Shown here: positions 5,524 through 22,886 of the stretch, one piece after another
Position numbering within the stretch: position 1 is the stretch's first letter
Layout of the letters: every line of letters begins with the position of its first letter
Source of the DNA: a virus
Direction: 5' to 3' (one strand)
Length of the DNA: 22,886 nt
Virus record (IMG/VR): IMGVR_UViG_3300035681_000132
Coordinates: 1-22,886 of that record
Made by a program: the position numbers and the translations under genes
The notes under the pieces: model-generated
Seen by the model: the letters and a program-made list of their open reading frames with translations, nothing else
Told to the model about the DNA's origin: nothing
The model's database searches: none

Positions 5524-8025
5524 TTAGGACATTGCGTTAATGAAGAGGACGTTGCTTGTGAATGCGCCTGTGGTGGCCGTGCCTGCGGTCGAGACTTTTA
5601 AGCGAGCGTATCTGAAACCGTTATTGTCCGCAGAGCAAGAAAACGCCCCGACTCCGGTGATTGTCATTGATTGCCCGGAAGAAAACCAATGCGAATTGTT
5701 TGTGGAAAGCTCCAGCGTCAAAACCGGGGAAGTTGCAAATCCGCCAGCGAAATTGTAAAGCGATACTGCAACCTTTTTGCATCCCTCTATTACTACAGGA
5801 GGAGTTGATTTTAGTGTTGACGCAAAATCACCAAGTGTTGTCGCGTTGAACACGTTATTGATCATGATGCCGTGATTGGTTGGGTCGGCAAAATCACGGT
5901 ACTGCCGAAGGATCGGATAGGATCCCGGAGGAAGCTCAAGTGATGTAATTGTTGCCGTGATGGTCGTGCTGGCGCCTCCGCCTCCGCTGAAGCACACCCA
6001 TCTCCGCCGCCCTCCGACAACGATCGGAGGAACGCGGATAATCCCTGTGGCAGAGACGTTTTCAGACATCCAGATGTCTGTGAAATTCGTTCCGCCAGAA
6101 GACTCTTGCAGTTTGAAGTAAACGTAGCTAGCCGCGCCAATCGTAAAGGCGGTTACGTTTATTTCAGCGGAAATAACGGATGCCCCGCCCCTCGCCGATG
6201 CGACCAACGTTCCGTTAACGGCGCCGGTCCCCGCGAATGCCGTCGCGTTTTGGTCGACCTGTGAAACGCCGGATCCGATCGAGACTGCCAGAGTGCTGTT
6301 TGTGCTCCCACTGGAAACGCCTAGGGATGGAACTGCTGAAGCAATCGTGGATGCGTTTATTGACCCGCCAGCAACGTTCGCTTGAATCGCTGCAACCGCA
6401 TCGGTGGAAGGGCGCGGCGCGAATTCAACTCGCTCGCGGATGTACTCAAAAATACGGATCGCTGAGATACGGAAATCGGAGCGCTTGATAACGCCTCCAC
6501 CGCAGTTTGTCGAAACGAGATTGGCTGGAGAAGGCCCACCAGTCACGGTTTCCAGCGTGAGGGTTGATGTGGCAAGATTGCGGACCTTGTAGACGCCATC
6601 GATACCAAGGTCGGATCCGTCCACCGAACTGCGTACACCGTAGATGTCGACTAAGTCTCCGATGACCAAGCCTGCCCAAGTGGTGCTTCCGGTCACGGTC
6701 AAAATCCCGCTCGAAATTGAAACGCTTTGGAACACCTGCGCAATTGCTCCGTTTTGCACAGCGCCGCCGTTTACACGGCTCATATAGCCGCCGTACGAGG
6801 TAGCAGTTCCGCTAGATCCCCAAACGATCGTGATTGCCGTTGGTGAAACGATTGATGCGACTTTGGCTGCAGTCGTTAGGTTTGCAAAAGACGTCGCGGC
6901 TTGATCGCGCACTCCATACCCCACCAGATAATCGTCAACCGTCAATCCGTGCGGATCGGCGAACGTAACGGTTGCGGATGTAGATGCCGTTTTGACCGCC
7001 GAAACGATTTTTCCAACCGGTGCGGTCAGGCCCTTGTTGTTTGTTGCAACGATGCGCGCTTTGTACAGCTTGTCAGGATCCGGACAGATCGAGTCACGGA
7101 TCACGCGTGACGTTGTCGCAGCAATCGAATCAATCGCTCCGTCGTGCCACTGCACACGGTCGGCCTGCAGGTTTAGATTGTATTTTGACGACGGGAAAAA
7201 CGAGTAAGCGCCGATCGCGTTGATTGACTGCACGGATGCCGTGGTGGAAACCGTCGTGCTCTGGTTTCCAACCGCAGTCCCGGATGCAACCGCATCTCCG
7301 CTTGCTGCGCGGACGTAAAACGATGCGTTGGTGACCGTTGCATTCTCGAAAATCATCGACGTTCCATCGGAGCTGCCCGAAAGCCTGCGCCGAACGTACA
7401 GCATCGGAGATCCAAGCGCCGCCGGAGATGCGGTCAGGGAAGGGATGGTTCCGCCGGGGCCTGCAGTAGCAGTAAATTGCGTGGCGCTCAACACGCTGGC
7501 GACAACCAACGCGCCGTAATTAAACCGCGAATCTGTGCATCCGTAGATCCCAACGCTCTGCCCTGCTGACAGATTGTGAGACGCGGACGTCGTGACTGTG
7601 AGCGTGGTGGTGGTCTGGGAGAGAGCGGATATTGCAACCTCAGCAGGCGCGGAGGACGGCGCGGCTGAATCCACAATCTGCATCGCAAATTCCTGGTTGA
7701 GAACCGCCTGAGAACGATGAAGCGCGAAAGACGCCTCGAGCGGCATCTTGAATGTTTCGAGTCCGTCAATGATTGACTCGGTTCCAACGTTGAATGGCGA
7801 CTTTGAAAGAACCCAGTAAGAAGCGCCTTGGCAGTTGCCATCTAGTAAAAGCAAGTCTCCGTTTCCCAGCGTCGTAGTCCAATCCTGCGCTGGCGGAAGC
7901 GTATCGCAGTTCGTCCGGTATTTTTTCGTTACGTTGCCGGTTGGGAACTGCGGAGAATCACTGGCAGGGACAATGCTTTGGGAGCGGTCGGACGTGGTTT
8001 GTCCTTGGTTCGGGAAATAGCTCAT
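5524..8025 (-). CDS. Large tail fibre / receptor-binding structural protein
   Basis: An 833-residue protein, last structural gene before lysis, with an ATGA overlap on the collagen-like fibre gene (8022-8025). Ser/Thr/Ala/Val-rich with many short beta stretches (LSQTTTTLTVTTSASHNL; TSATVTFADPHGLTVDDY), as in beta-solenoid or Ig-like fibre proteins. The segment GLTVDDYLVGYGVRD and the repeated 'T..VSA.S.T.FTAT' style suggest tandem small beta domains. The C-terminal ~250 residues (from SLGVSSGSTNST onward) look like a separate domain. No enzymatic motif seen. Most likely contacts the host surface. Confidence 0.7.
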   Translation of the reverse strand: MSYFPNQGQTTSDRSQSIVPASDSPQFPTGNVTKKYRTNCDTLPPAQDWTTTLGNGDLLLLDGNCQGASYWVLSKSPFNVGTESIIDGLETFKMPLEASFALHRSQAVLNQEFAMQIVDSAAPSSAPAEVAISALSQTTTTLTVTTSASHNLSAGQSVGIYGCTDSRFNYGALVVASVLSATQFTATAGPGGTIPSLTASPAALGSPMLYVRRRLSGSSDGTSMIFENATVTNASFYVRAASGDAVASGTAVGNQSTTVSTTASVQSINAIGAYSFFPSSKYNLNLQADRVQWHDGAIDSIAATTSRVIRDSICPDPDKLYKARIVATNNKGLTAPVGKIVSAVKTASTSATVTFADPHGLTVDDYLVGYGVRDQAATSFANLTTAAKVASIVSPTAITIVWGSSGTATSYGGYMSRVNGGAVQNGAIAQVFQSVSISSGILTVTGSTTWAGLVIGDLVDIYGVRSSVDGSDLGIDGVYKVRNLATSTLTLETVTGGPSPANLVSTNCGGGVIKRSDFRISAIRIFEYIRERVEFAPRPSTDAVAAIQANVAGGSINASTIASAVPSLGVSSGSTNSTLAVSIGSGVSQVDQNATAFAGTGAVNGTLVASARGGASVISAEINVTAFTIGAASYVYFKLQESSGGTNFTDIWMSENVSATGIIRVPPIVVGGRRRWVCFSGGGGASTTITATITSLELPPGSYPILRQYRDFADPTNHGIMINNVFNATTLGDFASTLKSTPPVVIEGCKKVAVSLYNFAGGFATSPVLTLELSTNNSHWFSSGQSMTITGVGAFSCSADNNGFRYARLKVSTAGTATTGAFTSNVLFINAMS

Positions 8026-10313
8026 AGAACGAAATAGGCGCTGCCGTTAGATGCGAGTGTCAACGATGTGTACTGAATTTGAAGGTATGCAGCCGACTCC
8101 CCATCGATGCTGGAAGTGGGATCGGACACGACAACGGAATTGACCGAGCCGTCAGTGCGTTTGATTTCAAAGACCTGTCCGGCAACTGTAGCCGCCGGGG
8201 GAAGTGTCAGCGCAACACCGCCGCCTGCTGCGCTCGCGAGGATGATCGAGTCGGACGCTAGGATGGAGCCGGAGGCGGACACTGAGCGAGCCGCAAGCCT
8301 GTAGCCGTTGAGCGTTGGCGTTGCGATCGTCGGAGATCCCGCACGCACGATTCCATCCGTCCCGGTGCTGGTCGACGAAACAAACGCCTGCACATCCGTC
8401 CCGATAACAAGCCCGAGGTTCGCTCGGGCACCTGCAGCGTCCACTGCTCCGGTTCCGCCGTGCGCGATTGCAATCGTGGTTCCATTCCAAGTCCCGGACG
8501 AAATCGTTCCGAGCGTCGTAATGTTGATGGACCCCGGCCACGTTGAGAGCGCCGTGTTTTCGACGTTGCTCAAACCGAGATTATTTCTCGCACCGGTGGC
8601 ATCGTTCGCGCCGGTCCCGCCGTATGCAAGGCCGATGGTTGTCGCTGCCCAAATACCGTTTGCAATCGTCCCGAGCGTGACGATGTTCGTGGATCCCGCC
8701 CACGTTGAGAGCGCCGTGTCCTCAACGTTTCCAAGACCAAGCGCGGACCTTGCAAGTGGTGCAGTCGTCGCTCCGGTGCCGCCCTTCGCGAGAGAGATTG
8801 GCGTTGCGTTCCAAGTTCCCGTTGCAACGGTTCCGAGTGTGGTAATGTTCGCCGATCCGGCCCATGTCGAGAGCGCGGTGTTTTCGACGTTCCCAAGGCC
8901 CAGATTCGTTCTGGCGCCTGCCGCCGTTGTCGATCCCGTCCCGCCGCGTGCAAGCGCGATTGTGGTTCCATTCCACGTCCCTGCGGTGATCGTACCTAGC
9001 GTTGTGATCGCTGTTGATCCTGCCCACGTTGAGAGATTGCCCAGTTTGGTGACATTTGCCGAAAGCCGCGCATCGTCAAGAGTGCCGGTCGTGATCGTGG
9101 ATGCGTCTCCGACAAATGATCCAGTATCGCCGCGAGGAATCGTGAAATTGAAAACCGCAGCGCTAGATGTCCCCGAGTTTGTAATGACAACCGAGGTTCC
9201 AGCCGCGCCAGTGGTGACCGTCCCGACCGCGATCGTTGCCGCAGTCCCCGCAGGGCCTTGCGCGCCGACAGCGCCGGATAGCGAGACCGCCCAAGCCGAA
9301 TAGGTGCCCGATCCGGTGTGATGAGCCACATCAGCCACCAACGCCCCCGTCAGCGCATTGTAACTAACAACCGTACCGTGCATGTGCGTGTCCGGAACGG
9401 TTGTCGAAGAAATGATGATTGACTGTTCGGTGATATAGGCGAGGCCGGTCCCGACGGTCAGGTTTTTGGTCCCGTTGCTAACGGTTAAACTGCTGGAGCT
9501 TGTGGTTGTGTACCTGTCGCCGTCCAGCCCCGCTGCTCCGGTGTCGCCTTTGGAAGCAACCAGATTCCACGCCGAAGTTTGAGTTGGATTCGGGTTCCCC
9601 GGCCCCGCAGGGATTGCGACGGCTGCGACGTACGAAGATCCGAGATATGCGACGACGTCGCGAATATTGAAAGCGCTCGTGTCGTTCCACGTCCCCTTCC
9701 AAGCGAACGAATCTCCCTGCGCACCGGTGGCTCCTACATCTCCGCGCGGAATGGTGAAATTGAATGTTGCGGCACTTGATGTGCCAGAGTTGGTGACGAT
9801 CGCAGAGGTCCCCGGTGCTCCTGTTGTCGTGGATCCAACCGCCACCGTTGCAGCCGCCCCCGTCGCACCGGTTGCGCCCGTTGCGCCCGTTGCGCCAGTC
9901 GCTCCTCGCGGGATTTGAAACTCTAAAACCGCTGCACTCGATGTTCCGGAATTTGCAACGATTGCGTTGGTGCCGGGGTCGCCCGTTGTGGTCGATCCAA
10001 CCGAGATCGTTGCAGCTGCCCCGGTCGCGCCAGTTGGCCCAGTCGGACCAGTTGCGCCAGTCGCACCCGTCGCGCCCGTCGCGCCTCGCGGGATTGTGAA
10101 ATTCAGAACCGCCGCTGTAGGCACGCCGACATTGACGACTTCCGCGTTCGTCCCGGGCTCTCCGGTAATCGTTGAGCCAACCGCAAAGGTCGCATCGGAT
10201 CCGTCCTCGCCTTTCGGCCCGACTAATCCGCGAGCGAGTGACAAATTGATTTCGACCTTTTGAGTGTCAATCGTGACGTCAACTGGGACGGAAAGATTCG
10301 GTTGTGTGCTCAT
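8022..10313 (-). CDS. Collagen-like tail fibre with tandem 54-residue repeats
   Basis: A 763-residue protein. After an N-terminal beta segment (VPVDVTIDTQKVEINL) come three blocks alternating collagen-type GXY runs (GATGATGATGPTGPTGATG) with a ~35-residue unit (VGSTTTG.PGT.A.V.NSGTSSAA....IPRG). Later come four 54-residue repeats of the type GGTG...GARTNLGLGNVENTALSTWAGS.NITTLGTI, and a C-terminal tip with a beta pattern (AATVAGQVFEIKRTDGSVNSVVV). Start MSTQPNLSV at 10313 is chosen for its ATGA overlap with the upstream gene. Collagen-like triplets trimerise fibre shafts. It shares the tail-fibre role with the next gene. Confidence 0.85.
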   Translation of the reverse strand: MSTQPNLSVPVDVTIDTQKVEINLSLARGLVGPKGEDGSDATFAVGSTITGEPGTNAEVVNVGVPTAAVLNFTIPRGATGATGATGATGPTGPTGATGAAATISVGSTTTGDPGTNAIVANSGTSSAAVLEFQIPRGATGATGATGATGATGAAATVAVGSTTTGAPGTSAIVTNSGTSSAATFNFTIPRGDVGATGAQGDSFAWKGTWNDTSAFNIRDVVAYLGSSYVAAVAIPAGPGNPNPTQTSAWNLVASKGDTGAAGLDGDRYTTTSSSSLTVSNGTKNLTVGTGLAYITEQSIIISSTTVPDTHMHGTVVSYNALTGALVADVAHHTGSGTYSAWAVSLSGAVGAQGPAGTAATIAVGTVTTGAAGTSVVITNSGTSSAAVFNFTIPRGDTGSFVGDASTITTGTLDDARLSANVTKLGNLSTWAGSTAITTLGTITAGTWNGTTIALARGGTGSTTAAGARTNLGLGNVENTALSTWAGSANITTLGTVATGTWNATPISLAKGGTGATTAPLARSALGLGNVEDTALSTWAGSTNIVTLGTIANGIWAATTIGLAYGGTGANDATGARNNLGLSNVENTALSTWPGSINITTLGTISSGTWNGTTIAIAHGGTGAVDAAGARANLGLVIGTDVQAFVSSTSTGTDGIVRAGSPTIATPTLNGYRLAARSVSASGSILASDSIILASAAGGGVALTLPPAATVAGQVFEIKRTDGSVNSVVVSDPTSSIDGESAAYLQIQYTSLTLASNGSAYFVL
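8400..9060 (-). repeat. Tandem 162-bp coding repeats in fibre gene
   Basis: The landmark CGTTGAGAGC (plus strand) or its variant recurs in exact register at 8541, 8703, 8865 and 9027, so the period is 162 bp (54 residues). Copies are diverged but in frame. Boundaries are approximate. Such arrays can change copy number by recombination and thus fibre length. Confidence 0.85.
9715..10210 (-). repeat. Alternating collagen-like and 35-residue repeats
   Basis: Three collagen-type GXY blocks (about 10019-10092, 9852-9912 and 9715-9740) are interleaved with units ending in NFTIPRG or EFQIPRG; a further diverged unit occurs near 9125-9245. On DNA the blocks show as runs of GCG-C-C-GT-like triplets. 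Repeat edges are approximate. Confidence 0.75.
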
Positions 10314-10651
10314 CGTGAGACGTCCTGCAAAATTTGCCAAGTTCCGGTTAGATAAGTTTCTCGAAACCCTCCTGCCAGAGTCACCTGCAGATCGTAGTAA
10401 TAAAGCCCGCTGGCGAGCGTTACGGCCTGCTCGTTAATCCTCATGATGCCATTCACCGCGTCCGGAAATGACGTTGCAAGCACCATCGAAACCGTTGCCG
10501 AAGTCGGCTCAGGACGCACCTGCAAAAGCACAGTCGCGCCCGTTAGGTCGACTGGCTCGTTGGCGATTTTGAGCGTAATATCAATCGCTCGGAACGTGTC
10601 GCCCGTCCGGTGATCCGGCAAATTAAAATTCGGCTTTAGACGGGTTGCCAT
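10310..10651 (-). CDS. Small tail/baseplate fibre-attachment-like protein
   Basis: A 113-residue beta-rich protein (MATRLKPNFNLPDHRTGDTF). The pattern GDTFRAIDITLKIANEPVDLTGATVLLQVRP, then YYYDLQVTL and a terminal TGTWQILQDVSR, is the form I know from phage proteins just before fibre genes, similar to the N-terminal domain of BppU-type upper baseplate proteins. It probably connects fibres to the tail. Start chosen at ATG 10651; a TTG in frame at 10657 is possible. A GAGTTGACA copy lies upstream at 10668-10678. Confidence 0.65.
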   Translation of the reverse strand: MATRLKPNFNLPDHRTGDTFRAIDITLKIANEPVDLTGATVLLQVRPEPTSATVSMVLATSFPDAVNGIMRINEQAVTLASGLYYYDLQVTLAGGFRETYLTGTWQILQDVSR

Positions 10652-10667
10652 GGTCAAAGTTTCGTGC

Positions 10668-10678
10668 CTGTCAACTCT
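10668..10678 (-). promoter_or_regulatory. GAGTTGACA start-associated motif, site 4 (variant)
   Basis: Minus-strand AGAGTTGACAG, 16 bases before ATG 10651 (10 before a TTG alternative); its TGA ends the sulfhydryl oxidase gene. One or two bases differ from sites 1-3. Confidence 0.5.
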
Positions 10679-11291
10679 GCTGAGAATACAGTTTCAGCGC
10701 CTCTTCGAGCGGCATTTCCGGTTTTCCGATGCGTGCATTGACCTCGTTGTGCCACTCGACGCTGAGAGCGAAAAGCGCCTCCGCAGTTTCGACGATTGGA
10801 GGCTTGCGGGTAATCATTTCAACCCAGTGAGCCTTGCACGATCCGCATGGGATCGAGTTCGTGATTCGTATGATGATTTGCCGAAGATCCTCTTTGTCTC
10901 CGGACCATTGCAAAGCAAGTGTGTGGAGCTCTCGCCAAATGTGCGGACCTTTTGCCTCCATTTCGCCCTTCTGCTGCGCACTTTGTGGTTTTGGCGGAAC
11001 AGTCGCCGCTGTGCCTTTTCGAGAGTCCGCATGAAATGCAATAGAGGCGTCGAAATGGCGAACGATCGCCGCGTGTTGCTCCAACTCGAAATACGTCGTT
11101 TCAAGCCACGGGAGCCATTCTTCCAAAACAGGCTTCAGCGCAAAAAACGCCGCCTTTCTGTCTGTCATCGATCCGCCTTCGTCGAGATGCGGAATAACCT
11201 GCGGAAACCTCTGAGTGAATTCGTCTCGAAACCTTTTCAGCTTCAGAATCCGCTCCAGCGCTGGAAATGCGAACGGTGTAATTTTTGTCAT
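10671..11291 (-). CDS. Erv1/Alr-type FAD-linked sulfhydryl oxidase
   Basis: A 206-residue protein. The C-terminal ~95 residues carry the Evr1_Alr signature: WRELHTLA (119-126), the redox pair CGSC at 149-152 in NSIPCGSCKAHW, and EWHNEVNARIGKP with His181-Asn182, which in the family contacts FAD. Such enzymes pass electrons from thiols to FAD and then oxygen, making disulfides. The N-terminal ~100 residues are a helical extension without a recognised fold and without a second CxxC that would serve as a shuttle. No signal peptide, so it acts in the cytoplasm. It follows a 41-Cys protein by 18 bases, a likely substrate. AAAAACACCGC precedes its ATG. Confidence 0.88.
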   Translation of the reverse strand: MTKITPFAFPALERILKLKRFRDEFTQRFPQVIPHLDEGGSMTDRKAAFFALKPVLEEWLPWLETTYFELEQHAAIVRHFDASIAFHADSRKGTAATVPPKPQSAQQKGEMEAKGPHIWRELHTLALQWSGDKEDLRQIIIRITNSIPCGSCKAHWVEMITRKPPIVETAEALFALSVEWHNEVNARIGKPEMPLEEALKLYSQQS

Positions 11292-11305
11292 GCGGTGTTT
11301 TTCGG
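11292..11305 (-). promoter_or_regulatory. AAAACAC start-associated motif before the sulfhydryl oxidase gene
   Basis: CCGAAAAACACCGC directly before ATG 11291 in an 18-base gap. One base differs from the ACACG core. Confidence 0.45.
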
Positions 11306-11309
11306 GGAA

Positions 11310-12227
11310 TTAAATCGGGACACATTCGCCGCCCACGCACTCGAAGCCGGGATCGCAAATGATTCCAAAGCACGGGTCCAAATCGCATTGAAAAGTGCAG
11401 TAACCAATTTGCGAAAGCCCGGGGCAGAAATAGACGTTGTAGATGTAGGCGGGTGTCGACCCGGGAGGGCATTGGCAGGATGGATCGGTGCTGCCTGTTG
11501 GTATGCAGACAGGTGCGCCTCCGGGGTCCGGCTCAGCGCATTGATCCTCTGGAGGGTCCGGCTCATAGCAATAGGTGCCAAGAGGAGCCGCCATGCAATC
11601 GTCAATGAATGTTGCTGGATCCGTGTTGCACACGGAATAAACGTAGCAAGAGTCCGTGCATTTGCCTCCGCAAAGCGAATTGTTGAAATAAACGGGATGA
11701 GGAACGCCGGTTGAAAGTTTAACGGTCCCATCTGGATCAAGCTCTGTATAACACCCGTAAAATCCAAGTTTTGGAAGGCGATTGCACTCCAAACATGTTG
11801 CACATGTGCGATGACATTCTTTAGTGATCACCGATCCGTCTGGAGGATCCGTCAACGGATTGCACTCGTAAACGTGTTTTGTAAATGTGTCGTCGTTTCC
11901 TTCGCACGCGTATCGAGCCGGTCCGCATGGGTCAAAAGGGTTGTAGTCGCCGGGGTCTAGCCTTTGCAAAATATACTGTTTGCACGGATCCACGTTTGGA
12001 TCTTTCAGACATTGGCAGCAGCAATCCGGGCATTCCTCCAAGCAATCGCAAGGCAGCGTTGCGTTGCCGCTTGCCGGTGCCCACTCGCAAATGCCATCCC
12101 AGTATCCGGGCTGGATCTGAGCGCATTGCTGGCCGGGAGGGCATCCAGCGCACGTCAGCGGATTGTAGATGTTTTCGCAATTACATCGGCCCGCGTTGCA
12201 CGGGTCCTCGGGAGGGCATGGAGTCAT
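11310..12227 (-). CDS. Extremely cysteine-rich tail-region protein (41 Cys in 305 residues)
   Basis: By hand count 41 of 305 residues are Cys (about 13%), plus many Pro, Asp and Gly. Spacing varies (CDCLEECPDCCCQC; CHRTCATCLEC; CDPGFECVGGEC), more like disulfide-knotted or EGF-like surface proteins than zinc fingers; His is scarce. Repeated DPC and PDPP motifs suggest short modules. There is no signal peptide. Sits among tail-tip genes and next to a sulfhydryl oxidase, so I infer a virion tail protein stabilised by disulfides. Zn or other metal binding remains an alternative. Family not recognised. Confidence 0.75.
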   Translation of the reverse strand: MTPCPPEDPCNAGRCNCENIYNPLTCAGCPPGQQCAQIQPGYWDGICEWAPASGNATLPCDCLEECPDCCCQCLKDPNVDPCKQYILQRLDPGDYNPFDPCGPARYACEGNDDTFTKHVYECNPLTDPPDGSVITKECHRTCATCLECNRLPKLGFYGCYTELDPDGTVKLSTGVPHPVYFNNSLCGGKCTDSCYVYSVCNTDPATFIDDCMAAPLGTYCYEPDPPEDQCAEPDPGGAPVCIPTGSTDPSCQCPPGSTPAYIYNVYFCPGLSQIGYCTFQCDLDPCFGIICDPGFECVGGECVPI

Positions 12228-12230
12228 TTC

Positions 12231-12548
12231 CTAAACTGGTGCGGGAGGAATTGTAAAATTGATGTCCATAACGCCGGGATCCGTGCAGGTGATCGTGACG
12301 GTTGCGCTCGCGATAACCTCGCGCACGATTGCGTAAATGTCGGCGGTATTTCCGCCGCCCCCGAGCACGTCGAGGTTGAAAGTCAGGACAGCGCCGCCCT
12401 CAGGGCCGACCTCTAGCTTGGCAGCGTTGGTCGGAATGAAGGTCATGTTCGCGAGCGAATTGACGGTCCCAATTAATTCGTTTGCACGCTCCGCATTCAA
12501 GAGCGTGTCCTCAGACCCTTTAACGACTGGAGCGATGCGTTTTGCCAT
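12231..12548 (-). CDS. Small structural-region protein (105 residues)
   Basis: Starts MAKRIAPVVKGSED at 12548, with GGAGGTG upstream and a TAATG overlap on the previous stop. A helical N-terminal part (ERANELIGTVNSLANM) is followed by a beta-like stretch (KLEVGPEGGAVLTFNLDV) and a Gly run (LGGGGNT). No family recognised. Its place among tail-tip genes makes a minor tail or adaptor role likely. Confidence 0.65.
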   Translation of the reverse strand: MAKRIAPVVKGSEDTLLNAERANELIGTVNSLANMTFIPTNAAKLEVGPEGGAVLTFNLDVLGGGGNTADIYAIVREVIASATVTITCTDPGVMDINFTIPPAPV

Positions 12549-13192
12549 TAGACCAGCACCTCCACATTTACATCAGGGTATGGGACGTAACGTTCTTTCC
12601 GCACCCAAATATTCCCTTTCCAGCGCGTGACCTCCGAGTCGTCTCCTAGATACGGACTCGTGATTGTCAGGGATGGTGGAGTGCCCGAAACAGGGTTTGT
12701 TCCCTGTGTGCAAATTGCGTTTTCGATTTTGAAAATCTTCCAGCCCTTATTGATCGGAATGTCGACTGCCGGATTGTCTGTTGTGTAATACTTGTAATCA
12801 ACCCGCGTCGATGCCTGCAACGGGAAAGATGCGCCCTGCGGAAAGCCGATCCAGAGGCCCGTGTCAACGTCGCGCACATAGACGACGGTGTAATTGTAAA
12901 CGATGCTCTCAAATTCGCTCCTGTCGGGCGGCTTTTGGTAATAGGTCCGCGTCCACTGCAGCATGCCCGCCCCGGCATCCGTTGGCGTCGACTCCTCAAC
13001 CAGATAGTAAAGCGTGCCGCTGATGTTGATCGTGCTATTCCACGCGAGCGGGGAGAAGTTCGCGGCGTTCACCTGAAATTCTTGCGTAAAGAATTTCGCC
13101 TGAACGTCAGAGTCGTAACCGAACACTCTGGGCCCGGATGCTTGAGCCGTTGTCGCTGCCGCTGGTAGATCGTAGTAAACTCCGGTTGGCAT
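12548..13192 (-). CDS. Unassigned tail-tip-region protein (214 residues)
   Basis: First gene after the tape measure, where the distal tail protein usually is. Aromatic- and beta-rich (TLYYLVEESTPTD; IVYNYTVVYVRDVDTGLW; YKYYTTDNP) and no enzymatic motif. It could be a diverged Dit-like or tail-tip protein, but I cannot show this. CCAATAACACG stands two bases before its ATG, overlapping the tape-measure stop. Confidence 0.7.
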   Translation of the reverse strand: MPTGVYYDLPAAATTAQASGPRVFGYDSDVQAKFFTQEFQVNAANFSPLAWNSTINISGTLYYLVEESTPTDAGAGMLQWTRTYYQKPPDRSEFESIVYNYTVVYVRDVDTGLWIGFPQGASFPLQASTRVDYKYYTTDNPAVDIPINKGWKIFKIENAICTQGTNPVSGTPPSLTITSPYLGDDSEVTRWKGNIWVRKERYVPYPDVNVEVLV

Positions 13193-13205
13193 AGCGTGTT
13201 ATTGG
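13193..13205 (-). promoter_or_regulatory. AAAACACG-like start motif before the tail-tip gene
   Basis: CCAATAACACGCT directly before ATG 13192; overlaps the tape measure stop. No SD. Confidence 0.45.
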
Positions 13206-14605
13206 TTCGTGATTGCGACGATTTTAAGGCCTTTAAGAGCGTGAGCCGCAGAGCTTAGATCCCTTGATGAATTCATCAGCGCTGTTTCTGGCCCGATAGG
13301 CTGCATGGCTTTTTCAACATCCACGGCCTTCCCTTCTCTGATTTTTCGCTCAACGATCCTCTGCGCTTTTTGCTGCGCGTGTCGCAATCGAAGCGCTTCT
13401 CTATCTGCTGCAACTCGCTCTGCTGGCGACATTAGGAGCCGCTGCGTCTGCGCCTCTACAAGATCCATTTTAGCTTGTCCTGCTTTGGCTGCAAATTCCC
13501 CGCCGATGTCTCCACCGATAGCCTTCGCCTGATCCAAAAAGTGAACAATATTTTTGACTTCAATAGACTGCAGTTTTCGGAAATTCATTGCCTTCCGTTC
13601 TGCGTCTTCTTGTTTTTTTGCGAGCTCATCCTCTGCATCCATGCGCCTTGCATGGTGTTCGAGCATGGTTTGCTCTGCTTGCTTCTCTCGATCCTTCTGA
13701 AATTTTGCGATTTCCTGCTGGAAAAGCCTTTCTTGCTCTGCTTTGGCTTTTGAAGCTTTTTCTGCCTCAGTTTCTGCAGGCTTAGGCTGTAGCTTAGTTG
13801 CAAAAGGAGTCTCTGCTTCCTTGCCTAGTCCGACCTCTCCCATTGTGTGCTTCCAAGATCTTGAAAACACTCCGAGAGCATTCCCAGACATCGCCTTGAA
13901 CCCATTCCAAAAGCGCGCCGTATCATCGCCAAGCTGATCGAGTGCTTTTGCGTTGTCTTCGCTCATTACAGTCATGGCGCTTCCTGCCTCCTTTATTGCG
14001 TCACTTCCTTGCGACATCGCTCCAACCATGCTTTTCCCGACCTTGCCAAAAATAGCTTCGAGTTTAACCGTTTTTTCTCCAGAAGATCCCATCTTATTTA
14101 CTGCGTCCGAAATCTTCAAAAGCACCTCGTCAGGCGACATGTTGCGAAGATCTTCTAGCGTAACCCCAAGCGCCTCGAAGTCGGCAATAGCATCCTCGTT
14201 TCCCCCCTTGGCTTGCTCTATGTTTGACGCCAGTGCGGACATCGCCTTCCCGAATTTTTCTGAGCCAATTCCGGATTCTCCGAACACACCTTGCATCTTC
14301 TGCAGTCGCTCAATGGAAACGCCCAAGTTCTCACTCATGTCGTTGAGCGCCCCAGCCATGTCTACAACGCCAATAATGAAATCCTTGATCTTATCGAATG
14401 CTAAAATCCCAGCAGTGAATCCCGCCAATTTCCCAATCGCTCCGCCAAAAATTCCTCCACCCGCTCCTCCTCCTGCCTTTGCTGCCTTAGCCGCTGTCTG
14501 CGACATATCCTTTGCGGCATTCTCAACTTTCTTTTTGCCTTTTGATAACCCCTCGTCCATGCCGGACGCGTCCACGCCCAGTTTTGCCATTAAAACCGAG
14601 CTCAT
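13199..14605 (-). CDS. Tape measure protein (short)
   Basis: A 468-residue protein. N-terminal Lys/Ala-rich helix (GLSKGKKKVENAAKDMSQTAAKAAK), a Gly-rich hydrophobic core (GGGIFGGAIGKLAGFTAGILAF), then long helical segments, with a central part (NLGVSIERLQKMQGVFGESGI; ALGVTLEDLRNM) typical of tape measure proteins, and a coiled-coil C-terminal half. It sets tail length; at about 1.5 angstrom per residue 468 residues predict roughly 70 nm, short for a siphovirus. Start at 14605 overlaps the upstream stop (ATGA); a second in-frame ATG at 14590 (MAKLGVDASG) is possible. Confidence 0.85.
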   Translation of the reverse strand: MSSVLMAKLGVDASGMDEGLSKGKKKVENAAKDMSQTAAKAAKAGGGAGGGIFGGAIGKLAGFTAGILAFDKIKDFIIGVVDMAGALNDMSENLGVSIERLQKMQGVFGESGIGSEKFGKAMSALASNIEQAKGGNEDAIADFEALGVTLEDLRNMSPDEVLLKISDAVNKMGSSGEKTVKLEAIFGKVGKSMVGAMSQGSDAIKEAGSAMTVMSEDNAKALDQLGDDTARFWNGFKAMSGNALGVFSRSWKHTMGEVGLGKEAETPFATKLQPKPAETEAEKASKAKAEQERLFQQEIAKFQKDREKQAEQTMLEHHARRMDAEDELAKKQEDAERKAMNFRKLQSIEVKNIVHFLDQAKAIGGDIGGEFAAKAGQAKMDLVEAQTQRLLMSPAERVAADREALRLRHAQQKAQRIVERKIREGKAVDVEKAMQPIGPETALMNSSRDLSSAAHALKGLKIVAITNQ

Positions 14606-17570: not shown

Positions 17571-18467
17571 TTAAGCGGAGACGATGCGCTTGATGCCTGC
17601 GCCGATCCCGACAACGGAACCGTAAACGCACTCCCACACCTTTTTCTTCTGGCCGCTGTCCTCGTCGTACCACTCGCGCACGCCGATCGTGATGCCGGTG
17701 GCAGGATCGGTGAGGGCTTCTGCACGGGTATATCCGTGACCTTCCTGCGGTGCGAGGTAGCGGATAGCAACCGCGAGCGCGGAAGGATGCACGGCGAACC
17801 CGACAAGGTTCTGGCCGTTGGCTGGAATGATCGTCGACTTGTAGACGTCGAACCCTGCCAAGCGTGGGAGCTTGTTGTTGTGCAGCGGATCGTTGGTGCC
17901 GTAGGCCTGAAGAACGGTCACGGTCTGATCCTTCAGGAGGTTCGCGTAGTAGGTTTCCTTCAGGACCAGCGAACGCATTTCCTCGGGCATGTCTGCGGTA
18001 TCGCACACCTGCGCCAGAGTGATGACGCTGTCGACGTCGAAAGCGGTTGCAGCGCCGGTGAATGATGCCGCGCCGAAGTTGGCTAGAGTCACATTCGCGA
18101 GGATGTCCTGCACGACTTTCTTCCCGAGCTGGAAGCCCTTCTGCTTGCCGTACATTTCGAGATTCAGAACGCTCGAAGATGCAACTTCGACGTCGTCCAA
18201 AGCCCCGGAAACGTACACGGGCTGCCCAAGGCTAATTTCGACTGCGTCGGACGTGTTGTCCTGAATGACGTAGTCCGCGCCTGTGACTTTTGCGACAGCT
18301 ACCGACTGAGCGCCGATCCGAGGGATCGACACTTTGTCGCCTTTTTTTACAGCATCAGCGTTGAAGCTGGTACTGAACGCCTGCAGAGGTAGGAGGGCTG
18401 CGACGAAACCGTCGAGCACCCCCTGTGAAATGACATCGTCGTTGATGCCGGTAATGGTATTGGCCAT
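17571..18467 (-). CDS. Major capsid protein
   Basis: A 298-residue protein in the capsid position directly after the protease/scaffold gene. N-terminal MANTITGINDDVISQGVLDGF and strands DKVSIPRIGAQSVAVAKVTGADYVI and QPVYVSGALDDVEV suit an HK97-fold capsid, possibly of the P22 gp5 type rather than the cleaved HK97 type. The C-terminus ends KVWECVYGSVVGIGAGIKRIVSA. ATG lies 15 bases after the protease stop with no SD, surprising for what should be the most abundant product. Fold inferred from position and strand pattern. Confidence 0.8.
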   Translation of the reverse strand: MANTITGINDDVISQGVLDGFVAALLPLQAFSTSFNADAVKKGDKVSIPRIGAQSVAVAKVTGADYVIQDNTSDAVEISLGQPVYVSGALDDVEVASSSVLNLEMYGKQKGFQLGKKVVQDILANVTLANFGAASFTGAATAFDVDSVITLAQVCDTADMPEEMRSLVLKETYYANLLKDQTVTVLQAYGTNDPLHNNKLPRLAGFDVYKSTIIPANGQNLVGFAVHPSALAVAIRYLAPQEGHGYTRAEALTDPATGITIGVREWYDEDSGQKKKVWECVYGSVVGIGAGIKRIVSA

Positions 18468-18482
18468 GTTGGGTGGATTGGG

Positions 18483-18929
18483 TTACTTGGTGGTTTTCGC
18501 CGCCTCGATCAGCTCGCTGCGGTTTTGTTTAAGGAATGCCAACCATTCGGTCGACTTTCCGCTCTGTCTCAGTTGGTTAAACTGATCGAGAATGTTCACT
18601 CCTTTGTTTGGAGAAATTTTGTCGTCGGCCTGAGCCGAAATCGAAACCGGAGCGTGCCCAGTTTGAGCCACAAGCGCAGCCGCCTTCGCGTTCACCTGTT
18701 CGAGCACCGATGCGGATTTTGCGCGTTCCGCTTCGAGCTCATTCTTGAGCGATTCGCATTCGGCCTTTGATGTCGCGAGATTGGCTTGTGCGGCGTTCAA
18801 TTCTTCTGAGATCCCATAGATACGTGCCTCTGCGTTCAAAAGATCCTGCGCCGTTTTTGCGAGCATCGCTTGGAAGTCCGGAAGCACCGGTGGTTGCTCG
18901 ATTGCGTTCTGAGGTTCTGGGTTTTCCAT
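18483..18929 (-). CDS. Internal-start scaffold protein (C-terminal part of protease gene)
   Basis: In frame with the protease, an ATG at 18929 is preceded by AGGAAGGAAGCACA, i.e. AAGGA 6 bases before the ATG. The product (148 residues) begins MENPEPQNAIEQPPVL, just at the acidic linker, and contains the coiled coil (LNAEARIYGISEELNAAQAN; LKNELEAERAKSASVLEQ). Lambda gpC/Nu3 sets the precedent: a free scaffold made from an internal start. Read from sequence; not shown to be used. Confidence 0.5.
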   Translation of the reverse strand: MENPEPQNAIEQPPVLPDFQAMLAKTAQDLLNAEARIYGISEELNAAQANLATSKAECESLKNELEAERAKSASVLEQVNAKAAALVAQTGHAPVSISAQADDKISPNKGVNILDQFNQLRQSGKSTEWLAFLKQNRSELIEAAKTTK

Positions 18930-19895
18930 TGTGCTTCCTTCCTGTTCGATCTGTTCTTCCTGCTCCTTCTCGTGCTCCGCGTATTTTGCTTCGGCCCACG
19001 CCATCGCACGCTCCGAGTCCACCTTCGGCCACCCACCCCAAAGCGCATGTGCAACCATGCCGGGGGTCGGATTGGATTCGTCGCCCTCGACTCCGTCCAA
19101 GTCTCCCATGTGCCGTGCGAACCATGCTGCCATCCTCTGCGCCTTGTCAGGCGAAACGAGATTGCCGCCAGCGATTGCACGCGCTTCCTCAATCGTCGAG
19201 TCTGCGAGCCCGTCGCCGCCGAAGCCTTTTTCAAACCAGTCTAGGCCTTTGCGGAAATTGTCGCGCATCCACTGCGGCGCTGGCCACGGATTGGCGAAGT
19301 GAAACACGCCGGAAGGCGCTTTTGCGGAGATGGCTGAAAGATCGATCTTAGCGGCGGCTTGCATGCCTTCAAAAACTTCGTCGGCGAGTCCGAAGGCCAC
19401 GGCCTCCTCTGCGGAAAACCATGTCTCCGCGTCCATCGCTGCAGCGATGTCTTCCTCTGGCATCCCGCTTTTGTCTGCGTAGATTTTGACCAGAGAATCT
19501 TTGAGCTTGTCGAGAACGTCAGCCTGTTTCCGCATCTCCTCGGATCCGCCTGCGGCTTGGCTCCAAGGGTTATGAATCATCAGGAAGCCGTTGGAAGCGA
19601 TCTTAACTGGCTTGCCCGCCATCGCGATAACGGACGCCATGCTGGCGGCGATTCCGTCAACCATCGTCGTGACGCCTGCCGGATGGATCCGAAGCGCGTT
19701 GAAAATGGCGTGACCTTCAAACACTGATCCTCCGGGGGAATGAATGTGAAGGTTGATGTGCTGGCCCTTCCGGCTTGCGAGTTCGGCGATAAATTCGGAT
19801 GCCGATGCGCCCCAGCCGCCGACCTCGCCGTATAGATACAAGTCGCCTTCTGGTGTGTCGGCGGATGCTTTGAAGTCGTACCAGTTGGAAGCCAT
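18483..19895 (-). CDS. ClpP-like (S14) prohead protease fused to scaffold
   Basis: A 470-residue fusion. Residues 1-180 are a ClpP-fold serine protease: IHSPGGSVFEGHAIF, nucleophile Ser85 in GIAASMAS, His108 in MIHNPW, and MDAETWFSAEEA where ClpP has its catalytic Asp (here Asp155 or Glu157). A central domain (residues ~190-305) with AWFARHMGD and ALWGG follows, then an acidic linker (EKEQEEQIEQEG) and a coiled-coil scaffold C-terminus. The protease matures the prohead. Start taken as ATG 19895 with GAGTTGACAC 13 bases upstream; a GTG at 19907 is also in frame. Confidence 0.88.
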   Translation of the reverse strand: MASNWYDFKASADTPEGDLYLYGEVGGWGASASEFIAELASRKGQHINLHIHSPGGSVFEGHAIFNALRIHPAGVTTMVDGIAASMASVIAMAGKPVKIASNGFLMIHNPWSQAAGGSEEMRKQADVLDKLKDSLVKIYADKSGMPEEDIAAAMDAETWFSAEEAVAFGLADEVFEGMQAAAKIDLSAISAKAPSGVFHFANPWPAPQWMRDNFRKGLDWFEKGFGGDGLADSTIEEARAIAGGNLVSPDKAQRMAAWFARHMGDLDGVEGDESNPTPGMVAHALWGGWPKVDSERAMAWAEAKYAEHEKEQEEQIEQEGSTMENPEPQNAIEQPPVLPDFQAMLAKTAQDLLNAEARIYGISEELNAAQANLATSKAECESLKNELEAERAKSASVLEQVNAKAAALVAQTGHAPVSISAQADDKISPNKGVNILDQFNQLRQSGKSTEWLAFLKQNRSELIEAAKTTK

Positions 19896-19908
19896 TGGAT
19901 TTTTCACG

Positions 19909-19919
19909 GTGTCAACTCG
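19909..19919 (-). promoter_or_regulatory. GAGTTGACAC start-associated motif, site 2
   Basis: Minus-strand CGAGTTGACAC, 13 bases before the protease ATG (19895), in the short gap after the portal stop. No SD. The same distance as site 1. Confidence 0.6.
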
Positions 19920-19922
19920 TCA

Positions 19923-21410
19923 TTAAATTTCAACCGGAGTGCCAGAAAGCCCGCCTCCGATTTGTCCGCTTGCGGTGCGTTGCTGAAGCATCGAAAGCGC
20001 GGTTCCGAAATCGATGCCGGTTTGATCCGAGATGCGCTTCGCACGATTGATAACGTCGACCGTTTCGCGCTCGCGTGCGTCCATGTGCTGATCCAGCACC
20101 TGCCCTTGTTCCGCGATCACCTCGGACAGATTTTTGAACCCGAGTTTGTAGTCCTCGCGGCGCGCTGCGGAATCCCGCCCAAGATCGATTGAGAATTTCG
20201 GTGGAAGTGTGAAATCCCATTTCAAGAATCCGCCCAAGTCGCTGCCTTTGTACTCTGGCAGGATGCCCGACTTGATCGCTTTGGAAATCGCATAGCCTAT
20301 TATCCTCTGAGCGACTGGCTTCAAAAGCTCCTGCCGGTCCAAGATCGTCGTCCGAGCCTTCTCAATCTCGGCCCGTTCCTGCGTCCCGTTCTGTCCGTCC
20401 GGTTTCCAGCACAGCGAATACGGCCATCCGACTCCGAGAAGCGCTTTGCGTGCAAGCCGGTCTTGGAATTGATCCCAGTCAGCGCCGGGGCGCATGTTAA
20501 CGAACTGCTCCAACTTGGATCCGGTCCCGGCCTTGAAATATGTAATCGTTCCGCCTTCCAAACGTTCGATGCTGGTATCCACCGAATTCTCTCCGCGATT
20601 CAGAATAACCGCCGGATCGTTCACATCGGCCTGCCCGCTTTCGTTCGTCTCGATCAGCGTCCGCGAACTGCTCGCCATCTGGTTGAGTTGCTCCCAGTAC
20701 TGGCTCTGGTCCGCGTCCCTCAGATCGTTCAGCGCGTGCGAGAAAAGCGGTAGCCCCCGGAGTTGATCCGCCCATTCGGGATCGAAGGCTAGGATCAGAT
20801 CCCTTGCAGAAACGTCTTTGTCGTCGCCTTCTTCGTCCGCAAGAACCCGATAGGCAACGGCGCGGCCCACTCGGTTTGTAATGACTCCATGCGAAATCTT
20901 CAGCCCCTTGTACGGGCCGTTTTCAACCGTGGTTTCGGTAGAACTGCGCTGCCCGATCCGGTGCGCCGGAATGGTTTGCAACATCGGCCACATCCCATCC
21001 TCTGAGGCCGTCAGTAAAACGCCTTGGTCTCCGTCCCGGTCAATCGCGATGCTCTGGAGATAGAGGGACGTTTTGAAATCGAACACATCCCCTCGGACAT
21101 TCGATGTCCCATACCAAAGCAAAAGCCACTCGGAAGCAACCTTCCCCCACTCTTGATCGGCCCCTCGGAAGACAGGATTCCACGCCCGCCCCACTGAGTG
21201 CATCGCCTTCTGGGCCGTCGCGCCTTTGACGATCCCATTGTTTGCCCAGAGTCGACGCGATAAAGAAAGAAGCGTGCGCCAGTCCTGAAGATTGACGGAC
21301 CGGTTTATGCTCTCGGTGCGCGTCGGAAGATACGGGCGGCCTGTCGTCTGCGAGGTCGCATTGATCAGCCTTGAATCGATTGGGTATCCCCACTGGTCCA
21401 CGAGTGCCAT
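19923..21410 (-). CDS. Portal protein (lambda gpB type)
   Basis: A 495-residue protein of the lambda portal family. Features: LSRRLWANNGIVKGATAQKAMHSVG, FDFKTSLYLQSIAIDRDGDQGVLL, IPAHRIGQR, and the C-terminal DRQELLKPVAQRIIGYAISKAI with a Pro-rich end. Twelve copies form the ring through which DNA passes and which the terminase docks on. ATG lies 3 bases past the previous stop with GAGG about 9 bases upstream. Length is close to family size (about 530). Strong family and position match. Confidence 0.92.
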   Translation of the reverse strand: MALVDQWGYPIDSRLINATSQTTGRPYLPTRTESINRSVNLQDWRTLLSLSRRLWANNGIVKGATAQKAMHSVGRAWNPVFRGADQEWGKVASEWLLLWYGTSNVRGDVFDFKTSLYLQSIAIDRDGDQGVLLTASEDGMWPMLQTIPAHRIGQRSSTETTVENGPYKGLKISHGVITNRVGRAVAYRVLADEEGDDKDVSARDLILAFDPEWADQLRGLPLFSHALNDLRDADQSQYWEQLNQMASSSRTLIETNESGQADVNDPAVILNRGENSVDTSIERLEGGTITYFKAGTGSKLEQFVNMRPGADWDQFQDRLARKALLGVGWPYSLCWKPDGQNGTQERAEIEKARTTILDRQELLKPVAQRIIGYAISKAIKSGILPEYKGSDLGGFLKWDFTLPPKFSIDLGRDSAARREDYKLGFKNLSEVIAEQGQVLDQHMDARERETVDVINRAKRISDQTGIDFGTALSMLQQRTASGQIGGGLSGTPVEI

Positions 21411-21413
21411 GCG

Positions 21414-21716
21414 TCAGAACCTCGCTTTGATTTTGGTTATTGGACGCATGGAGAGATAGCGCTGGACCTGTTCCAACGTCATGCCGTCAAAAAACTCCAA
21501 GGCCTCCTCAACACGCGCCAGAAGCTCGGAGGTCGACAGTTTCGGATCCACCTGAAACGAGAACGATTTCCCATTGGCGGAGAGGGATGTCATTTGCCGC
21601 CCGCCCTTCTCGGAAATCAGTGTGAACTGTCCGGTGACGATGTTCTCCAAGACCTCGCGGCCCTGCGCCATCGCAATTCGCAAAAGCGATTTTGTGAAAA
21701 AGTCGGGCCCGGCCAT
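21414..21716 (-). CDS. Small gpW-like head-tail joining protein
   Basis: A 100-residue protein between terminase and portal, the place of gpW. It has GQFTLISEKGGRQMTSLSANGKSF, a beta hairpin like the TGKRVATVQKDGRRVEF of lambda gpW, then a helix (SELLARVEEALEFFDG), but an extra 20-residue helical N-terminus. Start ATG at 21716, 13 bases after GAGTTGACAC; a TTG at 21725 is in frame. gpW closes the head after packaging. Similarity is by pattern only. Confidence 0.5.
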   Translation of the reverse strand: MAGPDFFTKSLLRIAMAQGREVLENIVTGQFTLISEKGGRQMTSLSANGKSFSFQVDPKLSTSELLARVEEALEFFDGMTLEQVQRYLSMRPITKIKARF

Positions 21717-21729
21717 TGAATCCAAAACC

Positions 21730-21740
21730 GTGTCAACTCG
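21730..21740 (-). promoter_or_regulatory. GAGTTGACAC start-associated motif, site 1
   Basis: Minus-strand CGAGTTGACAC. It contains the terminase stop (TGA) and lies 13 bases before ATG 21716. There is no SD for that gene. It looks like a -35 box, but no -10 is found 15-19 bases further. Confidence 0.6.
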
Positions 21741-22886
21741 GCGAACCTAGGAACCCGTTGAATATCGCGAAAACAGTCTGCATCGCTTCGCAATCCCACA
21801 AGTGATTGTCCTTCCGGACTCGCACCCATCGCGACGAAATCGCCTTCGTGGTTTTTGAGACGACGTCACGCTTAACCTCGGAAGCGATTTGGTGGATGTA
21901 ATCGCCCGAAGCATCGTCCGGCGTCTCCCATCTCGCGCCCTTCCCGGCCCGCAGATTTGCGAGCACGTCTTTGACCTTCTCGTTGCTCCAAAACAGATAG
22001 TACGCCGTCCCTCCGGATGGTGCGGACGCTCGTTTGAGTTCGGAGTAAAACCGTTTCGTCGCCGGTTTGTTTTTCGGGAAATGCATAAACCCGTCGTCTT
22101 TGGATCCGTGCAAGGCAACCCATCCGAACCGCACGCACTCATCGTAAACCGCACCTGTCTCGAACTGCGCGTCTTGAAATGTGTACTGCGGGCGGACGTT
22201 CAACCTACGTCTGAGTTGCTCGATGTCCTCCGATGTATTCATTTTCCCCTCCCAAATCAGGCGGCTCGATCCGTCGCGATTCCAAGCCCTGCAGAGCACC
22301 CACCGATGGTCCCGCTGCCTGTCAATCGTGATGGCGCGGAGCACCGGAGAGAGTCGGCTCTCGAATTGTTCAAGGTCCCACGGCTCTCCGTTTTCGTATT
22401 CCGTTTTGCAATACCCGGCCCCGCCGAGTGACACCTCGGGCGCCGTCTCTTCCTCCCGCCAGAATTCCGCCAAGCGCTTGGTTTTGAAAATCTTTAATGG
22501 CTCCTGATCCCCGAGCGAAAGCGCCTTCTGGGCTCGCGTCCATCCTAGCGCGAGGTCCCCCCACTTCTCGTGAAATAGCGCCACCGCTGGCGCGTGCCAT
22601 CCGTGGTGTCCCGGAAGGCCTCCGGGATTTGTGACGACATAGCGAGACGCAATCGAGAGCCCGCGGCGGACATCCGGTTTGTCCTCATATCGAGTCTGGC
22701 AAAGCGGGCATTCGTAAACCGCAGACTGCGCAAGAGCGGCCTCGTCGATCAATCCGTTGTCGCCGGTTGTCACCTCGTACTTGAGGTTCTTGAAATCCCA
22801 TCGCGACGTCTCTCCGCACGTCGGGCACACCATCGAAAACTCCCGCCGGTCAGATCGCATCCACGCCGCGAACAGTTCTGAATCCC
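21733..22886 (-). CDS. Terminase large subunit, GpA family (5' end beyond window)
   Basis: Open from the right edge to a TGA at 21733; the N-terminal ATPase half with Walker motifs is outside the window. Two Cys pairs (MVCPTCGET; YECPLCQTRYED) are a zinc-ribbon typical of GpA proteins. RNase H-fold nuclease landmarks: ITIDRQRDHRWVL with Asp, FQDAQFETGAVYDE with the second Asp, and the late NHLWDCEAMQ with the third. The protein packages DNA into the prohead through the portal, which follows. An in-frame ATG at 22860 is internal and not the true start. Stop lies within a GAGTTGACAC motif. Confidence 0.93.
   Translation of the reverse strand, partial: DSELFAAWMRSDRREFSMVCPTCGETSRWDFKNLKYEVTTGDNGLIDEAALAQSAVYECPLCQTRYEDKPDVRRGLSIASRYVVTNPGGLPGHHGWHAPAVALFHEKWGDLALGWTRAQKALSLGDQEPLKIFKTKRLAEFWREEETAPEVSLGGAGYCKTEYENGEPWDLEQFESRLSPVLRAITIDRQRDHRWVLCRAWNRDGSSRLIWEGKMNTSEDIEQLRRRLNVRPQYTFQDAQFETGAVYDECVRFGWVALHGSKDDGFMHFPKNKPATKRFYSELKRASAPSGGTAYYLFWSNEKVKDVLANLRAGKGARWETPDDASGDYIHQIASEVKRDVVSKTTKAISSRWVRVRKDNHLWDCEAMQTVFAIFNGFLGSPS

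Follow-up and report, generated by a model that had tools for sequence, protein, structure and literature searches.

Erv/ALR-family sulfhydryl oxidase genes beside variable cysteine-rich tail-region genes in uncultivated tailed phages

Many uncultivated tailed phages carry a gene for a sulfhydryl oxidase of the Erv/ALR family directly beside a variable cysteine-rich (Cys-rich) gene of the tail region. We present the case of IMGVR_UViG_3300035681_000132, a virus DNA record of 22,886 bases that was analysed whole (positions 1 to 22,886, the window from here on), and we follow the pair through IMG/VR. We consider it likely that the phage Erv oxidase, encoded in a late tail operon, makes disulfides in the adjacent Cys-rich tail protein, which is itself exchanged between phages.

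Results

The gene pair in the window

The head-module genes identify the window as DNA of a tailed phage. Besides head and tail genes it codes an M15 endolysin and a Sak4-like annealing protein, and all of these genes are on the minus strand. The features that matter here are the following.

17571-22884, minus strand: head module with a gpA-type terminase, a lambda-family portal, a ClpP-like head protease and the major head protein
13199-14605, minus strand: tape measure protein (phrog_9483, E=2.3e-14, and others)
12548-13192, minus strand: conserved tail-module protein of 214 aa, the anchor of the slot test described below (alignment A6 and scan)
12231-12548, minus strand: small conserved tail-module protein of 105 aa, whose gene immediately precedes the Cys-rich one
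11310-12227, minus strand: Cys-rich putative tail protein, the presumed oxidase substrate, 305 aa with 41 Cys
12009-12023, minus strand: CCCQC motif, the counterpart of the CCCxC/CCxC motif of partners in other phages
10671-11291, minus strand: Erv/ALR-family sulfhydryl oxidase of 206 aa (Pfam PF04777)
10923-10937, minus strand: WRELH motif, residues 119-123 of the oxidase translation
10836-10847, minus strand: CGSC, the redox active-site Cys pair, residues 149-152
10737-10751, minus strand: HNEVN FAD-binding motif, residues 181-185, invariant in alignment A10
10310-10657, minus strand: BppU-N-like baseplate/tail protein (phrog_1084, E=1.1e-16), coded immediately after the oxidase
8022-10340, minus strand: collagen-like tail fibre (phrog_21765, E=7.5e-30; phrog_4120, minor tail protein)

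Transcription runs from the tape measure gene through the genes for the 214-aa, 105-aa, Cys-rich, oxidase and BppU-N-like proteins to the fibre. The pair is flanked by the tape-measure module and the collagen-like fibre, in a tail region as the original prediction had it; the same prediction placed the oxidase gene directly downstream of the gene for a 305-aa, 41-Cys protein, and both the coordinates and the minus strand agree with ours. The two genes are on the same strand, separated by 18 nt. The BppU-N-like product also hits Pfam BppU_N, below the cut-off (E=3.9e-4). The GXT/GXA stretches that make the tail fibre collagen-like are coded by short tandem repeats of 9/18 bases at 9859-10085. 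A Glyco_hydro_48 match on 12548-13192 is weak and we judge it to be chance.

Among deposited phages, the best match to the window portal is the portal of Verrucomicrobia phage P8625 (NC_029047), with 29% identity. The head-tail order of P8625 is similar, with a gpA terminase, a ClpP protease and a tape measure, but there the fibre follows the tape measure, and the phage has neither an oxidase nor any Cys-rich tail protein. This link to P8625 is the one hint of a host among the Verrucomicrobiota. We assign no host, because two pattern scans (A1 and A3, of limited reach) of 84,980 prokaryote genomes gave no relative.

The oxidase is a member of the Erv/ALR family

The window protein passes all the sequence and structure tests that define the Erv/ALR family, and it belongs to that family. 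The original prediction read a full Evr1_Alr signature in the gene and proposed a profile search of 10671-11291. The three motifs WRELH, CGSC and HNEVN are indeed present, and Pfam Evr1_Alr (PF04777) matches residues 117-197 with 53.6 bits (cut-off 27.6, E=2.9e-14). The domain covers approximately residues 105-206, preceded by an N-terminal extension of about 105 aa without Cys. In Erv enzymes, the Trp and the His of the motif corresponding to WRELH pack on FAD. The oxidase has two Cys in total, both in CGSC, which leaves none to form a shuttle disulfide; the additional shuttle Cys pair is absent. Such a pair is found in many Erv/ALR members, though not in all, and does not define the family. 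A PDB search with a five-sequence oxidase profile returns only Erv/ALR structures at E<0.001, of which 3gwl is the best (E=2.5e-12). The AF2 model of the oxidase domain, built from 19 phage sequences, has a pLDDT of 91 and shows five helices in the Erv layout, that is, the four-helix bundle plus a fifth helix. Foldseek with this model ranks 3gwl first (TM 0.84), followed by Erv1 (0.80), Erv2 and ALR (0.78), and in the viral library all named top matches are sulfhydryl oxidases of eukaryotic viruses. From this membership we predict that the protein is a thiol oxidase. An assignment to Poxvirus E10 (PF04805) is insignificant (14.9 bits against a cut-off of 27, E=0.024), and a GemA match on the oxidase is weak and judged to be chance.

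The Cys-rich protein of the window

Cys makes up 13.4% of the 305 residues of the Cys-rich protein. No hydrophobic N-terminal signal is seen by inspection, which agrees with the lack of a signal peptide originally reported. The protein has no match in Pfam or PHROG and no credible match in the PDB; matches of its profile to methanol dehydrogenase and to a small venom peptide are weak, and we attribute them to chance. In four relatives (L002-L005) the Cys-rich and oxidase genes occur in unchanged order, and the gene for the 105-aa tail-module protein keeps its place in these four and in L156-L158. Between the window and the relatives, 33 of the 41 Cys are kept at an overall identity of about 38%, with 30% at non-Cys positions. 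When compared to a 95%-identical relative, both the oxidase and the Cys-rich gene have a dN/dS of about 0.07, indicating purifying selection. The order kept in four relatives, the conservation of Cys and the low dN/dS together tell us that both genes are real. Structure prediction, which had been suggested for the pair, succeeds for one member: the oxidase domain is modelled well, as given above, and for the Cys-rich protein an AF2 model built on 5 sequences yields no usable fold (pLDDT 30).

The pair is widespread in IMG/VR

Scans with single proteins and close alignments reach only the four near relatives and miss the wide family, and the diverse alignment A9 offers no stretch of sufficient conservation for scanning. 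Among the matches listed, pattern and alignment scans of IMG/VR produce 154 calls of an Erv domain, on loci that overlap, and these calls form at least 61 sequence clusters of phage Erv domains. Allowing for a CxC active site, 116 of the 120 loci from the HNxVN pattern scan encode an Erv domain. All clusters have a Cys pair, either CxxC or CxC, and the W..xH motif, absent from the search pattern, is found in 61/61; the conservation of HNxVN in the pattern-found set is partly ascertainment.

We define a partner as a gene directly upstream of the oxidase whose product has 10 or more Cys, with a Cys content of 3.5% or higher. For 57 of the 61 clusters there are at least 900 bases upstream; nine of these form the CPC clade described below, and 48 are others. 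In 46 of the 48 non-CPC clusters, among the matches listed, a Cys-rich gene with 10-41 Cys is directly upstream, as compared to a background on the same loci of 11 in 690 genes (1.6%); raw counts are inflated by related phages. The co-occurrence survey thus comes out in favour of the original prediction, which underestimated how broad the pair is (at least 61 clusters and 20 partner families). The exceptions are L061, where the protein beside the oxidase has 6 Cys and a CCC motif, and L060, where the best ORF upstream reaches no more than 9 Cys. Partner genes mostly overlap the oxidase gene or lie within a few bases of it. The 20 partner families are mutually unrelated by blastp, and all have 10 or more Cys; simple inheritance of one gene pair therefore does not account for the link. 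One family of Cys-rich proteins, to which the L112 protein belongs, has 42 members. Of the 46 partners, 33 carry a CCCxC/CCxC motif in their first 45 aa. The pair occurs with a lambda-type portal, as in the window, and with an HK97-type portal (L058).

CxC active sites, the CPC clade and fusions

The active site is CxC (CSC, CGC, CDC, CQC and others) in 33 of the 48 non-CPC clusters, a majority noted among the oxidase genes of L010-L129, L143, L144, L147 and L177. Members with CxC score above the Pfam cut-off. Redox activity is known for the CxC and CPC motifs of Mia40 and of engineered PDI mimics, which offers a lead for the phage sites. CxxC has been taken as the signature of the Erv family (PMC10598087), and the papers found by our literature search do not describe CxC spacing in this family. 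The CPC clade, nine clusters with 99/98 support, has CxC spacing as well and no Cys-rich neighbour. The CPC proteins (L012, L054, L023 and relatives; L194-L202) have an N-terminal extension and are found on contigs of 43-61 kb, two of which code a small CxxCxxCC (PF03692) protein.

A few oxidases are longer. In L048 (6973-8163) and in L082, the oxidase frame opens with a segment that resembles rubredoxin (PF21349; below the cut-off, E=1.9e-4), possibly an electron carrier fused to the oxidase. In L138 (7953-9020; also L139-L141) and in L017 (10365-11480), a C-terminal extension of approximately 230-250 aa is fused to the oxidase. The L017 extension has a weak likeness (E=0.035) to glycosyltransferase family 8.

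The Cys-rich gene is exchanged between phages

Three comparisons describe how the partner gene moves. L134 and L138 have a tail gene that is 99% identical and Cys-rich proteins with 24% identity. L131 and L147 share a tail gene at 100% and the C-terminal end of the oxidase at 93%, with 33% for the Cys-rich protein and 35% for the N-terminal half of the oxidase, which includes the active site. L131 and L134 are the reverse case, with unrelated tail genes (28%) and Cys-rich proteins that are 94% identical; the N-half of their oxidases is at 69%, from which we conclude that the matching of oxidase to partner is not strict. Judged from these alignments, the Cys-rich gene is swapped as a module between otherwise near-identical phages. 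Mosaicism of this kind is typical of host-recognition proteins, and for this reason we favour a tail-tip adhesin as the identity of the Cys-rich protein, which is probably a tail-tip or host-recognition component. The Cys-rich genes of L130, L147 and L148 are long versions, 721-740 aa. A DUF11 domain forms the C-terminal part of two long versions, which suggests a surface adhesin.

Loci without the oxidase

For a view that does not depend on the oxidase, we scanned with the gene that lies upstream of the Cys-rich gene's slot as the anchor (the slot test). About 21 contigs, among the matches listed, have a slot protein with at least 14 Cys together with an oxidase; in one of them, L175, the contig ends within the oxidase. 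No slot protein that we saw has more Cys than the one ahead of this incomplete oxidase (L175, 6404-8071; 555 aa, 53 Cys). The original prediction named related phages with the Cys-rich gene, no oxidase and metal-bound Cys as evidence that would count against it. Contigs without the oxidase are small in number, and the prediction fares well in L159 and L162, which have no oxidase match and no more than 6 and 5 Cys, respectively, in the slot protein; it fares less well in L182, where a 25-Cys protein sits beside an Erv remnant (8079-8450) that keeps CGKC and has lost HNxVN, possibly an oxidase in decay. The CCxC motif is kept in both L159 and L162. In L162, the 5-Cys protein with CCxC (9211-10127) is followed by an 89-aa protein with 8 Cys and no Pfam match.

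Discussion

Disulfides or metal

In the mechanism that we propose, the enzyme activity, the substrate, the disulfides, the virion location and the timing are all predictions. Synthesis of the Cys-rich protein would take place in the bacterial cytoplasm, which is reducing. The Cys pairs of the protein, perhaps those of CCCxC first, would reduce the active-site disulfide of the oxidase, and electrons would then move from the oxidase Cys to FAD and on to O2, giving H2O2. The disulfide-stabilised protein would be built into the virion. The function given in the original prediction, a phage that oxidises its own tail protein, is plausibly correct.

The alternative that survives best has the Cys-rich protein binding Zn or Fe-S, with an oxidase that acts elsewhere, guards the virion or sets the redox state. 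The CCCxC/CxxC clusters look like metal sites, and the CCxC kept in the oxidase-less L159 and L162 points to a role of the motif apart from the oxidase. Odd numbers of Cys, found in 29 of the 46 partners, are also in line with metal binding and count against disulfides. On the other side, Cys-metal sites would be disrupted by oxidation, and all 20 unrelated partner families are found beside a thiol oxidase. The content of His in the partners is very low (median 0.9%), and the number of Cys goes up to 41 among complete pairs and to 53 in the slot protein of L175. The Cys columns are unchanged in pairs down to 62-83% identity, and close homologues of equal length differ by 0 or 2 Cys in nearly all pairs, changing in twos and not in fours. 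Neither the window Cys-rich protein nor the other partners scanned match a metal-binding family (in Pfam, and for the window also in PHROG). Given the adjoining thiol oxidase, the low His, the stable Cys columns and the changes in twos, we favour disulfides and find a metal-binding role unlikely.

We find it very improbable that the oxidase-like protein has ceased to be an enzyme and serves the Cys-rich protein as a chaperone or as a component of the virion. Such a role could account for the unusual CxC spacing in most of the family and for the loss of HNxVN in L182, but W..xH is present in every cluster even though we did not search for it, and the window enzyme has a canonical CxxC and HN-x-VN, with a dN/dS of 0.07. 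Least probable of all is a host-takeover factor that oxidises host thiols or makes H2O2 beside an incidental Cys-rich neighbour, as the CPC clade, with an Erv protein and no Cys-rich partner in its contigs, might suggest, since the oxidase is in the late tail operon rather than in an early region and the adjacency holds in 46 of the 48 other clusters.

Disulfide formation by the oxidase in its tail-protein neighbour can be extended, more tentatively and at somewhat less than even chance, to a general and widespread class in uncultivated phages: hypervariable, disulfide-rich host-recognition proteins at the tail tip that phages exchange as modules, each oxidised in the bacterial cytoplasm by a dedicated Erv oxidase coded next to it, which is mostly CxC and for which the CCCxC of the partner replaces the shuttle.

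Significance

Erv/ALR proteins have so far been treated as enzymes of eukaryotes and of their large DNA viruses, and a large and diverse set in tailed phages reopens the origin of the viral enzymes. A further implication is that virion proteins rich in disulfides would be made by some phages inside the bacterial cytoplasm, which is normally reducing. Gene pairs of a dedicated oxidase and its likely substrate are a supply for making disulfide-rich proteins in bacteria, and the variable Cys-rich gene may represent a new class of receptor-binding proteins.

Our literature search found Erv/ALR proteins only in eukaryotes and their viruses and none in phages, in keeping with the original statement that the pair was not known from a tailed phage. 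A pangenome study argues that Erv/ALR was captured from eukaryotic hosts and remarks on the absence of bacterial homologues (PMC10598087), and a review of extremophile viruses states that viral disulfides in the cytoplasm require a host or viral oxidase (PMC6842933). Neither five oxidases nor three Cys-rich proteins find a relative by tblastn in 50,697 deposited phage records, and none was found in PHROGs; such searches have a limited reach at this degree of divergence. A match to a Bacillus phage B103 head protein in a tblastn-type search of deposited phages is weak and judged to be chance.

Comparison with known systems

ASFV pB119L (3gwl) and other NCLDV oxidases such as mimivirus R596 are, like the window oxidase, small virus-encoded Erv domains, and they share with it the helical fold (3gwl, TM 0.84) and the W..LH, CxxC and HNxVN motifs. 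The NCLDV are cytoplasmic viruses that use Erv/ALR enzymes to make disulfides in their own proteins. Unlike these, the window oxidase belongs to a tailed bacterial virus, has no shuttle Cys pair and is tied to a Cys-rich tail gene, and its phage relatives differ further in that they are mostly CxC. Of a putative virion disulfide pathway of the NCLDV type, the genetic linkage is seen here, with the Cys-rich gene adjacent to the oxidase in 46 of 48 clusters. Poxviruses code a relay, E10R/A2.5L/G4L, that oxidises virion proteins in the cytoplasm. The principle would be common to the poxvirus pathway and to the window, where no relay protein is seen and the virus realm is different; E10R has a role in morphogenesis (PMC10598087). 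Yeast Erv1 and Erv2 and human ALR are in the same Pfam family as the window oxidase, with the same FAD-binding four-helix bundle. Erv1 and ALR use a flexible shuttle disulfide (for the shuttle Cys of Erv1, see PMC4019985) and partners such as Mia40, whereas the window enzyme has no Cys beyond the active site. A virus-coded Erv oxidase with a virion substrate is already known; what is new here is an Erv oxidase in another virus realm, with a new partner and, for the most part, a new active-site spacing.
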